Position numbers and translations under genes: made by a program
Part shown: piece by piece, positions 26,432 through 57,497 of the stretch
How the letters are laid out: every line of letters begins with the position of its first letter
Numbering within the stretch: position 1 is the stretch's first letter
Notes under the pieces: model-generated
Databases searched by the model: none
What the model was told of the DNA's origin: nothing
The model's input: only the letters and a program-made list of their open reading frames with translations
From: Pseudomonadota bacterium
GTDB lineage: Bacteria; Pseudomonadota; Alphaproteobacteria; Rhizobiales; Pleomorphomonadaceae
Length of the DNA stretch: 64,000 bases
Direction of reading: 5' to 3'
Assembly (NCBI GenBank): GCA_018262505.1
Contig: JAGSYV010000011.1
Coordinates: forward strand, 1-64,000

Positions 26432-28147
26432 TCAAAATAGGAAATACCGCTGCGCCATCGGCAGAACGTCGGCCGGCTCGCAGGTGAGGAGTTCACCGTC
26501 GGCTCGCACCTCATAGGTCTCCGGGTCGACTTCGATCTTGGGCGTTGCCGAATTATGGATCAGCGACGCCTTGGAGATGCCGCTACGCGTGTTCTCGACC
26601 GGCAGCACCACGCGATCGAGACCAAGTCGCTCTTTGATGCCATTCTCATAGGCATAGCGCGACACGAAGGTGACCGACGAGCGAGTCATCGCCTTGCCGA
26701 AAGCGCCGAACATCGGCCGGTAGTGCACCGGTTGCGGCGTCGGAATCGAGGCGTTGGGGTCGCCCATGGCGGCGGCGGCGATGGTGCCCATCTTCAGCAC
26801 CAGATCCGGCTTCACGCCAAAGAAGGCCGGCGTCCACAGCACGAGATCGGCGAGCTTGCCGACTTCCACCGAGCCAACATGCTTGGACAGACCCTGCGCG
26901 ATGGCCGGGTTGATGGTCACCTTGGCGATGTAGCGCTTGACGCGGAAATTGTCGGCGTCGGTACCGACGTCCTCGGCCAAGGCGCCGCGCTGCACCTTCA
27001 TCTTGTGCGCCGTCTGGAAGGTGCGGATGATCACCTCGCCGATGCGGCCCATGGCCTGACTGTCGGAGGAGATGATCGAGAAGGCGCCCATATCGTGCAG
27101 GATGTCTTCGGCCGCAATGGTCTCCTTGCGGATGCGGCTCTCGGCGAAGGCGACATCCTCGGGGATGGAGCCATCGAGGTGATGGCAGACCATCAGCATG
27201 TCCAAGTGCTCGTCGAGCGTATTGCGCGTGTAAGGGCGCGTCGGGTTGGTCGACGACGGCAGCACGTTGGGCAGGCCGGCCACCTTGATGATGTCGGGCG
27301 CGTGGCCGCCGCCGGCGCCCTCAGTGTGGTAGGCGTGGATGGTGCGGCCCTTGAAGGCGGCGATGGTGTCCTCGACGAAACCGCTCTCGTTGAGCGTGTC
27401 GGTATGGATCATGACCTGCACGTCGTAATCGTCGGCGACCGACAGGCAGTTGTCGATGGCGGCCGGCGTCGTGCCCCAGTCCTCGTGCAGCTTCAGGCCA
27501 CAAGCGCCGGCCTTCACCTGTTCAATCAGCGCCGCCGGCAGCGAGGCGTTGCCCTTGCCGGAGAAGGCCAGATTCATCGGCAGGCCCTCGGCCGCCTCGA
27601 TCATCCGCTCAAGATGCCAGGGGCCGGGCGTGCAGGTGGTGGCCGCCGTGCCGGTGGCCGGCCCCGTACCGCCACCCAGCATGGTGGTGATGCCGGCATA
27701 GAGCGCCTCATCGACCTGCTGCGGGCAGATGAAGTGGATGTGGGTATCGAGCGCGCCGGCCGTCAGGATCTTGCCTTCACCGGCAATCGCCTCGGTGCCG
27801 GGACCGACGATGATGGTGACGCCGGGCTGAACGTCCGGATTGCCGGCCTTGCCGATGCCGGAGATGCGACCATCGGTGATGCCGATATCGGCCTTGTAGA
27901 TGCCCGAATGATCGATGATCAGCGCGTTGGTGATGACGGTATCGACCGCCCCCTCGGCCCGGCTCGCCTGACTCTGGCCCATGCCGTCGCGGATGACCTT
28001 GCCACCGCCGAACTTCACCTCCTCGCCGTAGATGGTGAAATCCTTCTCCACCTTGACGAACAGCTCGGTATCGGCGAGGCGCACCTTGTCGCCAACAGTC
28101 GGACCGAACATGTCGGCATAGGCGGCACGGGACATGCGGTAGGGCAT
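26432..28147 (-). CDS. ureC: Urease subunit alpha (catalytic)
   Basis: A 571-residue nickel amidohydrolase that hydrolyses urea to ammonia and carbamate. Active-site residues are visible: His136 and His138 in DTHIHF, the carbamylated Lys219 in GLKLHEDWG, His248 in MIHTDTLNE, His274 in HAYHTEG, and the mobile-flap region MVCHHLD (Cys321, His322, His323). Length matches the bacterial alpha subunit. The start at [16 protein letters not shown] has AGGAGA about 7 nt upstream. Operon order here is ureD-ureA-DUF1272-ureB-ureC-MFS-ureE-ureF-ureG. Confidence 0.97.
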
Positions 28148-55969: not shown

Positions 55970-56080
55970 CTAGGCATTAATGCGCATACACTCCGGTGGG
56001 CTTGGAGAAAATCGTAAAGCAATCGAACCGCGATCAGCGGCGGGGAAGCAGGCAACTCCGGCGTATCCGCCCAATTCGTC

Positions 56081-56109
56081 TTGACCCGCTCTGCCCTTTC
56101 GGCCATAAA
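56081..56109 (+). promoter_or_regulatory. Candidate sigma70-type promoter of the asd leader transcript
   Basis: TTGACC (56081-56086, 5 of 6) and CATAAA (56104-56109, 4 of 6) are separated by exactly 17 nt. Transcription would begin near 56116, about 20 nt before the leader ORF start and about 285 nt before asd. Confidence 0.5.
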
Positions 56110-56136
56110 GCCCACCATTCGAGAGAGGAATGGTCC

Positions 56137-56241
56137 ATGCCGTTCGCGAATGGTTCCCGTCAGGCTGTCTTTGCGCTGGGTGTCGTCCCGGCGGGGCTTG
56201 CCATGACGAAAACGGCGACGACGAAAACGACCACGACGTGA
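56137..56241 (+). CDS. Threonine-rich leader peptide upstream of asd (putative attenuator)
   Basis: A 34-codon ORF with a good ribosome binding site (GAGAGAGG, 56121-56128) 8 nt before its ATG and a TGA at 56239. Its last 12 codons read MTKTATTKTTTT, eight of them threonine (ACG/ACC), immediately before the stop. An internal ATG at 56203 would make just those 12 residues. A short ORF ending in a run of codons for the end product, placed between a promoter and a gene of the aspartate family pathway, is the hallmark of attenuation as in E. coli thrL. Not recognised as any known protein; translation is inferred. Confidence 0.6.
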   Translation: MPFANGSRQAVFALGVVPAGLAMTKTATTKTTTT

Positions 56242-56255
56242 TCGACGCTTCCTCG

Positions 56256-56365
56256 CCCCGCACCGTCCTCCTCGGGGTCAGAGGAGGCGGATGGTGGCCT
56301 CCTCGAACGTCTCCCTGACAGACTGAAGAGCGACCGGCCGCCAGACAAGGCGGGGGACGGCTTTT
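56256..56365 (+). promoter_or_regulatory. Alternative hairpins in the asd leader (putative attenuator)
   Basis: Segment 1 CCTCCTC (56267-56273), segment 2 GAGGAGGC (56281-56288) and segment 3 GCCTCCTC (56297-56304) allow two mutually exclusive stems, 1:2 (7 bp, 7 nt loop) and 2:3 (8 bp, 8 nt loop). Downstream CCGCC (56338-56342) can pair with GGCGG at 56349-56353 in a GC-rich, terminator-like stem before TTTT (56362-56365), or with GGCGG of segment 2 (56286-56290). This fits a leader with competing structures; folding energies were not computed. Confidence 0.45.
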
Positions 56366-56401
56366 ACGGCGCAAGCCACACTTTCAGAAGGTCAGTCCAA
56401 C

Positions 56402-57433
56402 ATGGGTTACAAGGTCGCTGTGGTCGGTGCCACCGGAAACGTGGGCCGCGAAATGCTTTCGATCCTTGCCGAACGCGGCTTTCCCGCCGACGAGGTGATC
56501 GCCGTCGCTTCGCGACGGAGCCAGGGCACCGAGGTCTCGTTCGGCGACAAGACGCTGAAGGTGCAGGCGCTGGAGCACGTCGACTTCTCCGATATCGACA
56601 TCTGCGTCATGTCGGCCGGTGGATCGATCTCCAAGGAATGGTCGCCGAAGATCGGCGCCCAGAAGTGCGTCGTCATCGATAATTCCTCGGCTTGGCGTTA
56701 TGACGAGGACGTGCCGCTGGTCGTGCCGGAAGTGAATGCCGACGCCGTGGCCGGCTTCACCAAGAAATACATCATCGCCAATCCCAACTGCTCCACCGCC
56801 CAACTGGTCGTGGCGCTGAAGCCGCTGCACGACAAGGCCCACATCAAGCGCGTAGTCGTCTCGACCTACCAGTCGGTGTCGGGTGCCGGCAAGGACGCGA
56901 TGGACGAGCTGTTCACCCAGACCCGCGCCATCTTCGTGTCCGATCCGGTCGAAGCGAAGAAGTTCCCCAAGCGCATCGCCTTCAACCTCATTCCGCAGAT
57001 CGACGTCTTCATGGAGGACGGCTACACCAAGGAAGAGTGGAAGATGGTGGCGGAGACCAAGAAGATCCTCGATCCGAAGATCAAGCTGACCGCCACCTGC
57101 GTGCGCGTGCCGGTGTTCGTTTCCCATTCGGAAGTGGTCAACATCGAGTTCGACAAGCCGATCAGCGCCGACGAGGCCCGCTCGATCCTGCGCGAGGCGC
57201 CCGGCTGCCTCGTCATCGACAAGCACGAGCCCGGCGGCTACATCACCCCCTACGAGGCGGCCGGTGAAGACGCCACCTATATCTCCCGCATTCGCGAGGA
57301 CATCACGGTGGAGAACGGCTTGACCATGTGGGTGGTCTCCGACAATCTCCGCAAGGGCGCCGCGCTCAACGCCGTGCAGATCGCCGAGGTGCTGATCAAC
57401 CGTGGCCTGCTGAAGCCCAAGAAGGCCGCTTGA
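56402..57433 (+). CDS. asd: Aspartate-semialdehyde dehydrogenase
   Basis: A 343-residue NADPH enzyme that reduces L-aspartyl-4-phosphate to aspartate semialdehyde, the branch intermediate for lysine, diaminopimelate, methionine and threonine. The nucleotide motif VVGATGNVGREMLSIL is at residues 6-21, the catalytic Cys is in ANPNCSTAQLV, and TYQSVSGAGKDAMDEL and TCVRVPVFVSHSE (catalytic His) are present. Preceded by a threonine-rich leader ORF and competing hairpins, followed by a strong terminator, so it appears to be a single-gene unit with its own control. Confidence 0.97.
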   Translation: MGYKVAVVGATGNVGREMLSILAERGFPADEVIAVASRRSQGTEVSFGDKTLKVQALEHVDFSDIDICVMSAGGSISKEWSPKIGAQKCVVIDNSSAWRYDEDVPLVVPEVNADAVAGFTKKYIIANPNCSTAQLVVALKPLHDKAHIKRVVVSTYQSVSGAGKDAMDELFTQTRAIFVSDPVEAKKFPKRIAFNLIPQIDVFMEDGYTKEEWKMVAETKKILDPKIKLTATCVRVPVFVSHSEVVNIEFDKPISADEARSILREAPGCLVIDKHEPGGYITPYEAAGEDATYISRIREDITVENGLTMWVVSDNLRKGAALNAVQIAEVLINRGLLKPKKAA

Positions 57434-57457
57434 GCCAAACCGACTGAACGCTTTTCG

Positions 57458-57492
57458 GCCGCCGCGATCCCCTCGCGGCGGCTTTGTTTTTC
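57458..57492 (+). terminator. Rho-independent terminator of asd
   Basis: GCCGCCGCGA (57458-57467) pairs perfectly with TCGCGGCGGC (57473-57482), loop TCCCC, followed by TTTGTTTTT. Confidence 0.88.
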
Positions 57493-57497
57493 TGTAG

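Follow-up and report, generated by a model that had tools for sequence, protein, structure and literature searches.

Why should a short reading frame that ends in a run of threonine codons stand in front of asd, the gene for aspartate-semialdehyde dehydrogenase, in a member of the Rhizobiales? The product of this enzyme is the intermediate common to lysine and to homoserine-derived threonine and methionine, and an initial annotation of the DNA had read the region as a threonine attenuator that acts through transcription termination. In this work we follow up that reading in the window, by which we mean the whole 64,000-nucleotide stretch of contig JAGSYV010000011.1 that was analysed, and in related genomes. 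The earlier reading is partly supported. The leader is real, widespread and functional-looking, and its role as a ribosome-read leader is well supported, while the amino acids that it reads and the step that it controls look different from those first proposed.

Anatomy of the locus

The features around asd are collected in Table 1. The promoter-like pair TTGACC-17-CATAAA, the leader ribosome-binding site, the 34-codon frame with eight threonines among its last 12 codons (C-terminal end MTKTATTKTTTT) and the overlapping repeats at 56267-56304 (CCTCCTC, GAGGAGG and GCCTCCTC), which allow two exclusive stems, had all been described before and were found where they had been placed. The leader frame is nested in a longer ORF (55996-56241). 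Among 14 members of the genus, five of six columns are invariant in the -35 hexamer and again in the -10 hexamer, against two of 17 in the spacer; a sigma-70 promoter scan listed nothing at this pair. An inverted repeat, ACCATTC / GAATGGT, lies at 56114-56134 and holds the leader Shine–Dalgarno sequence in its loop. Thirteen of the 14 genus members, all but L015, retain its CATTC/GAATG core, and the repeat may serve to expose the leader's start or to gate it.

The assignment of a solitary asd behind a conserved leader frame also stood. Downstream of asd the nearest long ORF runs on the opposite strand, and asd seems to stand alone. The window Asd shares 99% identity with the Asd of Pleomorphomonas oryzae DSM 16300 (L032), and named loci whose sequence is identical or similar point to the genus Pleomorphomonas, near P. 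oryzae.

Elsewhere in the window, the Rfam family 5_ureB_sRNA matches positions 27706-27995 (+) with 112 bits. This family was reportedly described as an antisense RNA of Helicobacter, and the match may merely reflect a urease coding sequence.

Table 1. Features of the asd leader region, in window coordinates
Feature	Position	Strand	Sequence, partner or basis
Promoter-like pair TTGACC-17-CATAAA	56081-56109	+	TTGACC 56081-56086, 17-nt spacer, CATAAA 56104-56109; sequence reading
Leader Shine–Dalgarno, purine-rich	about 56121-56129		Sequence reading
Leader ORF	56137-56241	+	34 codons, MPFANGSRQAVFALGVVPAGLAMTKTATTKTTTT; ATG 56137, TGA stop 56239-56241
Thr/Lys codon run TKTATTKTTTT	56206-56238	+	11 codons, 8 Thr and 2 Lys; adjoins the stop
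Element a, CTTCCTC	56248-56254	+	Complementary to c
Element b, CCGTCCTCCTC	56263-56273	+	Partner c or d; includes CCTCCTC 56267-56273
Element c, GAGGAGGC	56281-56288	+	Partner common to a, b and c'; includes GAGGAGG 56281-56287
Element c', GCCTCCTC	56297-56304	+	Alternative partner of c; pairing counted within the genus
Element e, CGTCTCCC	56308-56315	+	Possible alternative partner of d
Element d, GGGGGACGG	56352-56360	+	Pairs with b
TTTT, possible weak or vestigial terminator tract	56362-56365	+	Follows d
asd Shine–Dalgarno AGAAGG	56386-56391	+	Sequence; in the genus, 56386-56392 has 5 of 7 invariant columns
asd, aspartate-semialdehyde dehydrogenase	56402-57433	+	TIGR01296 (asd_B equivalog) 474 bits; NF011456 527 bits
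Terminator-like site after asd, strong	about 57457-57493		11-pair stem, TTGTTTTT

Conservation and range of the leader

We called a leader present where at least five of the last 14 codons of a short ORF were threonine codons and its stop lay 20-330 nt upstream of asd, and both presence and absence depend on this threshold. By this definition 99 of 224 non-duplicate asd loci carry a leader, against 0.7 expected from dinucleotide shuffles of up to 420 nt of upstream sequence, which rules out a chance origin of the threonine run. This set leaves out six loci with no confirmed asd start (L079, L121, L127, L139, L200 and L232), six duplicate contigs and any locus with less than 200 nt upstream.

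Conservation of the threonine cluster in close relatives was one of the points on which the initial annotation had staked its reading, and every one of the 20 genomes read in the window's family carries the leader. Across the order it was found in 83 of 153 genomes and in 22 of 46 family groups. The genomes come from 158 loci (five unread), most of them chosen from the top of the Asd ranking and not from all matches, and 83 of 153 should therefore not be read as an unbiased frequency; a single genome stands for many of the family groups. Leader-bearing named taxa include Chthonobacter, Stappia, Mesorhizobium, Phyllobacterium, Aminobacter, Chelativorans, Pinisolibacter and the former Ochrobactrum. 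No Bradyrhizobium locus is among the 95 distinct leaders. At the threshold used, several family groups had none, among them f17 (0/7), f34 (0/7), f35 (0/6), f42 (0/5) and f48 (0/5).

A covariance model built from 15 Rhizobiaceae-type leaders has a match, one per genome, in 97 of the 151 genomes that belong to a second family, f23. By comparison with named loci of identical or similar sequence, f23 is probably Rhizobiaceae. We read 90 of the 97 matched loci; 88 have a recognised asd start (L299 and L324 do not), and 86 of these 88 have a leader with at least four threonines, the other two having fewer. Outside the order but within the same class, 28 loci were taken, five of which had no recognised start, and two of the 23 asd loci read carry a leader. 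These two, L364 and L369, belong to other orders or families and have Thr/Lys leaders (...TITTPTTKTKTGITV and MAAPTTTKKTKTVA) before asd, which suggests either an older origin or transfer. To judge from these genomes, the leader would be widespread in Hyphomicrobiales and sporadic in other Alphaproteobacteria.

Within the genus, a threonine-rich ORF with the same end is found in 14/14 members. The codon run and its stop (56206-56241) have 32 of 36 columns invariant and the 14 nt after the stop are all invariant. The first 23 codons are variable (21 of 69 columns invariant), and the two indels in the ORF, in L013 and L015, are each of 3 nt and keep the frame.

The leader was sought at other genes of the pathway as well. 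There was no threonine leader within about 1.5 kb of the hom loci of 20 genomes, nor within about 1.5 kb of lysC and thrC in the window's own genome. Two threonine-rich ORFs, at L354 and L360, were rejected as pathway-gene leaders, being sited at weak family matches and not at hom, lysC or thrC.

An alternative-pairing network downstream of the leader

The elements after the leader stop can pair in several ways. Over the 14 genus members, the paired cells number 98/98 for a:c, 97/98 for b:c, 112/112 for c:c', 117/126 for b:d and 107/112 for e:d. Two b:d pairs have C-G swapped for T-A on both sides within the genus, and one b:c pair has T-A swapped for C-G. In six of the 14 members the outermost b:d pair is mismatched (C-A).

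For comparisons across families we used a composition-controlled rank test, in which one partner is shuffled within each sequence. Representatives were chosen so that their pairwise alignment score was below 0.7 per base, which left 57 of 180 leader loci. In these the complementarity of a:c (p 2e-5), b:c (p 2e-5) and b:d (p 6e-9) exceeds that of the shuffles, and a set of 32 representatives gives the same pairs (a:c p 0.023, b:c p 0.004, b:d p 3e-6). There is also a weak excess for c:d (p 0.001 with 57 representatives, p 0.025 with 32), and a:b and a:d have no excess in leader representatives. Among leaderless asd loci (69, or 59, representatives of 107 loci) none of the six pairs is significant; one earlier run had given a:d at p 0.043, which was not significant in the later six-pair test. 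Furthermore, in 82 of 94 leaders the best long-range helix exceeds that of shuffled sequence, versus 31 of 69 leaderless loci.

Element c can pair with only one of a and b at a time, and b with only one of c and d, so these pairings are mutually exclusive. Leader loci share a network of alternative pairings, a:c, b:c and b:d, that leaderless asd loci lack, with complementarity, not structure in the cell, as the measure. In 78 loci with a strong b:d helix, b starts a median of 21 nt after the leader stop and d ends a median of 21 nt before the asd ATG; in the window d sits 41 nt from that ATG.

Several other pairings were considered. Across families e:d has no excess complementarity in a rough segment test (p 0.89), the codon run pairs with none of the elements beyond chance (lowest p 0.085), and pairing of a or b with the asd Shine–Dalgarno sequence is null. 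Element d shows lower complementarity to the asd start than shuffled versions of d do (p 0.0009). Swap (permutation) tests, with 15 and then 32, 57 and 100 representatives, had at first favoured a:c, b:c and a pseudoknot between a and a loop, but were discounted as the leaderless control scored too; the b:d signal survived that control. The a:loop pseudoknot also failed the rank test (p 0.19).

The global folding energy of the leader region is unremarkable (z -1.4 and -1.5), duplex-energy tests on crude segments gave mixed results, and ensemble pairing, computed with the ribosome site masked or unmasked, did not clearly favour one state. The initial annotation had pointed to an alignment of relatives for both the threonine run and covarying stems. 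The run is conserved. Tree-aware column covariation over 96 Rhizobiaceae-type sequences found no significant pair (best E 0.3).

What the leader reads

Leaders were selected on threonine alone and only then scored for lysine in the last 14 codons. In the 95 distinct leaders, threonine makes up 637 of the 1290 residues in this stretch, and every one of the 95 also has lysine. Among the 653 non-threonine residues 206 are lysine (31.5%), versus 3.8% in ORFs of shuffled sequence. Asparagine and glutamine are nearly absent, with one and two residues, respectively, among the 1290, and A-richness therefore does not explain the lysine; together with the lysine excess, this scarcity rules out a low-complexity origin of the run. 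Lysine is likewise found in 86/86 of the f23 leaders. Since Asd supplies both branches of the pathway, the leader looks like a dual sensor of threonine and lysine. The threonine leader first proposed is kept as regards the run itself, but not as a leader of threonine alone.

How firmly should the lysine codons be taken as a signal? They are mostly AAA (165 of 206) and placed between ACN codons, as would be expected if the leader read threonine only and lysine were a by-product of an A-rich, unstructured run. With the equally A-rich asparagine and glutamine codons so scarce and lysine in every leader of both sets, we consider this account improbable. Far less credible still is a peptide that acts in trans, as does peTrpL of S. 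meliloti (PMC7298713, in the text available). The product of a similar S. meliloti frame, SEP5, is detectable as a tagged protein according to the available text of PMC10117765, which would suit such a role. However, it is the Thr/Lys end of the leader that is conserved, while the first 23 codons vary and the length varies widely.

A possible mechanism

The locus has two properties of the attenuator class: a short ORF rich in a product of the pathway before a biosynthetic gene, and mutually exclusive RNA pairings downstream, as judged by complementarity. We put at about an even chance that it is a cis-acting, ribosome-read attenuator of asd, in which a stall frees d, and the a:c/b:d state lowers expression. 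In this model, a ribosome would translate the leader and, where charged Thr-tRNA or Lys-tRNA is scarce, would pause in the Thr/Lys run. The paused ribosome would cover the pyrimidine element a after the stop, so that a could not take c. Then b:c would form, d, which lies upstream of the asd ribosome-binding region, would stay free, and asd would be expressed. With threonine and lysine plentiful, the ribosome would finish and leave, a:c would form, b would pair with d, and asd expression would fall.

The last threonine is 0-2 codons from the stop in 171 of 181 leader records (from two partly overlapping sets), hence a pause where the run ends would be expected to place the ribosome over a. If a is covered under starvation, then starvation should favour asd expression, the sense expected for a biosynthetic gene. 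The stalling, this direction, which is reasoned from anatomy, and an output at translation initiation rather than transcription are all inferred. The opposite assignment, in which early stalls would leave a free, is possible. Several points count against the model or constrain it, among them the distance of d from the ATG in the window, the lack of significant column covariation and the weak c:d excess. Element b begins farther downstream than a ribosome at the stop codon is expected to reach, and a:c together with b:d would make a crossing (pseudoknotted) fold. With no ribosome present, stability favours b:c in 37 of 50 cases, so the OFF state would depend on a:c or on kinetics.

Which step is controlled

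The GC-rich hairpin and TTTT of the initial annotation are both present in the window, but 8 nt separate the hairpin (CCGCC/GGCGG) from the T's, and the genus has TTTT in only nine of 14 members, the others having TGTT (2), TCTT (1), TAGC (1) and TCCA (1). In classical transcription attenuation, stalling would prevent an intrinsic terminator and RNA polymerase would enter asd. The terminator candidates for it are e:d or b:d followed by CTTTT in the window and, in part of f23, a hairpin that lies between c and d and has T's after it. A terminator-like hairpin with a T-run (five of seven T) occurs in 10/95 leaders versus 1.75 in shuffled sequence and in 15/86 f23 leaders versus 2.8, and a relaxed test with four of seven T finds 28/86 versus 11.7 in f23 and 18/95 versus 12.0 in the leaders. 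These enrichments, the retention of TTTT after d in most of the genus and the nearly complete e:d pairing there speak for termination. However, 85 of 95 leaders have no terminator by the stricter test, one f23 subgroup, with AAAGAGAG before asd, has none (0/27), the T-tract is lost in the genus members L013 and L015, and e:d has no excess across families. Furthermore, the convincing terminator after asd in the same genome (Table 1) is quite different. Classical attenuation thus seems to us an unlikely general account. We reject an intrinsic terminator as the conserved output; termination may nevertheless operate in some lineages. More doubtful than this is Rho-dependent attenuation, in which the C-rich, G-poor segment 56248-56273 would be a Rho loading site covered by the stalled ribosome. 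The segment is pyrimidine-rich and the leader is conserved with no conserved intrinsic terminator, and the same idea was raised for terminator-less leaders of Actinobacteria (PMC1262725, in the text available), but Rho alone does not explain the b:d complementarity.

In L048, L053, L061, L110, L186 and similar loci, a hairpin of the form CCCGC...GCGGG with T's after it occupies the space between c and d. Its presence or absence by lineage is possibly a lineage-specific switch of the regulatory level.

We favour control at the initiation of asd translation as the probable output, with termination or Rho as its rivals. Across loci, the b:d state makes the ribosome-binding site slightly harder to open than the b:c state does (27 of 43, p 0.016). 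In the window it is cheaper in the b:d state (4.8 vs 7.7 kcal/mol). Sequestration of the Shine–Dalgarno sequence by a post-stop element is strong at the single loci L041, L170 and L173, but was set aside as a general mechanism, the native opening energy being above that of shuffled sequence in only 31 of 95 leaders.

Taken as a whole, we tentatively propose a two-input attenuator at a branch point, in which the charging of Thr-tRNA and Lys-tRNA would set asd translation through a refolding RNA that needs no terminator and matches no Rfam family in the loci scanned; this fuller version falls somewhat short of an even chance. If it is true, the leader would sense the end products of both branches at the gene where they part and so form a compact logic gate.

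Comparison with known systems

In ermC-type translational attenuation, a ribosome stalled in the leader frees the downstream initiation region in response to a drug. The asd leader would be alike in that a stalled ribosome would free an initiation region. It differs in that amino-acid supply, not a drug, would be read, and in that Shine–Dalgarno sequestration is not general.

The leader of the E. coli thr operon, thrL (Rfam RF00506, Thr_leader), is also a short ORF with a threonine-rich run before a gene of the same pathway, and it too reads two amino acids, threonine and isoleucine. Here the gene is asd and not thrA, the second amino acid is lysine and not isoleucine, the run ends at the stop and there is no conserved terminator. 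RF00506 had no match at its gathering threshold in the window or in 10 relatives, nor any in a permissive scan of 56050-56450, where a mir-598 line was dismissed as far below its family threshold. No Rfam family matched the leader in the window or in the 10 relatives; if the two-input reading is right, the Thr/Lys leader would give an annotation rule for many genomes. Pfam and NCBIfam each gave no family for three leader peptides, although such short peptides can escape profiles.

The nearest terminator-less design in the literature searched, to go by the text available, is the LEU element before leuA in Actinobacteria (Seliverstov 2005, PMC1262725). It shares with the asd leader an ORF of cognate codons and alternative folds, and the available text mentions no terminator. 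There the codon run pairs with the leuA Shine–Dalgarno sequence and a pseudoknot is proposed, as far as that text goes; at asd leaders pairings of this type are unsupported, both for the run with the Shine–Dalgarno sequence (p 0.4) and for the a:loop pseudoknot. The name asd does not occur in the main text, as available, of PMC4833913, PMC1273637, PMC2881028, PMC3766115, PMC2965389, PMC9373788 or PMC3616915. Two points were not found in the literature searched and are new in that sense, which does not establish their absence from print: the reading of threonine and lysine together as a conserved rule, and a three-way RNA competition that is specific to leader loci and has no conserved terminator.

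The leader itself is partly anticipated in print. The initial annotation knew of no threonine leader on a solitary asd gene in Rhizobiales, but SEP5 of S. meliloti had already been called 'possibly a leader peptide' in the available text of Hadjeras 2023 (PMC10117765). According to that text, SEP5 is a translated sORF, seen by Ribo-seq and Western blot, with six threonine and three lysine codons near its 3' end; it lies in the 5'-UTR of an 'aspartate dehydrogenase' gene and is 'conserved only in Sinorhizobium'. A common end of f23 leaders, SKTTAKTTTKTV, has exactly six threonines and three lysines. Since this composition equals that of SEP5, SEP5 is very probably the same element as the asd Thr/Lys leader, with a range far wider than stated; the S. 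meliloti locus itself is not among the named loci compared. The likeness lies in the Thr/Lys end and in the placing in the 5'-UTR of the gene. The differences are of range and structure: the paper, in the available text, limits conservation to Sinorhizobium and gives no RNA structure, whereas here the leader extends over nearly half of the family groups of the order and is joined to a pairing network. If the two-input reading is true, SEP5, a translated small protein of S. meliloti whose function is unproven, would become a regulatory leader of broad phylogenetic range.
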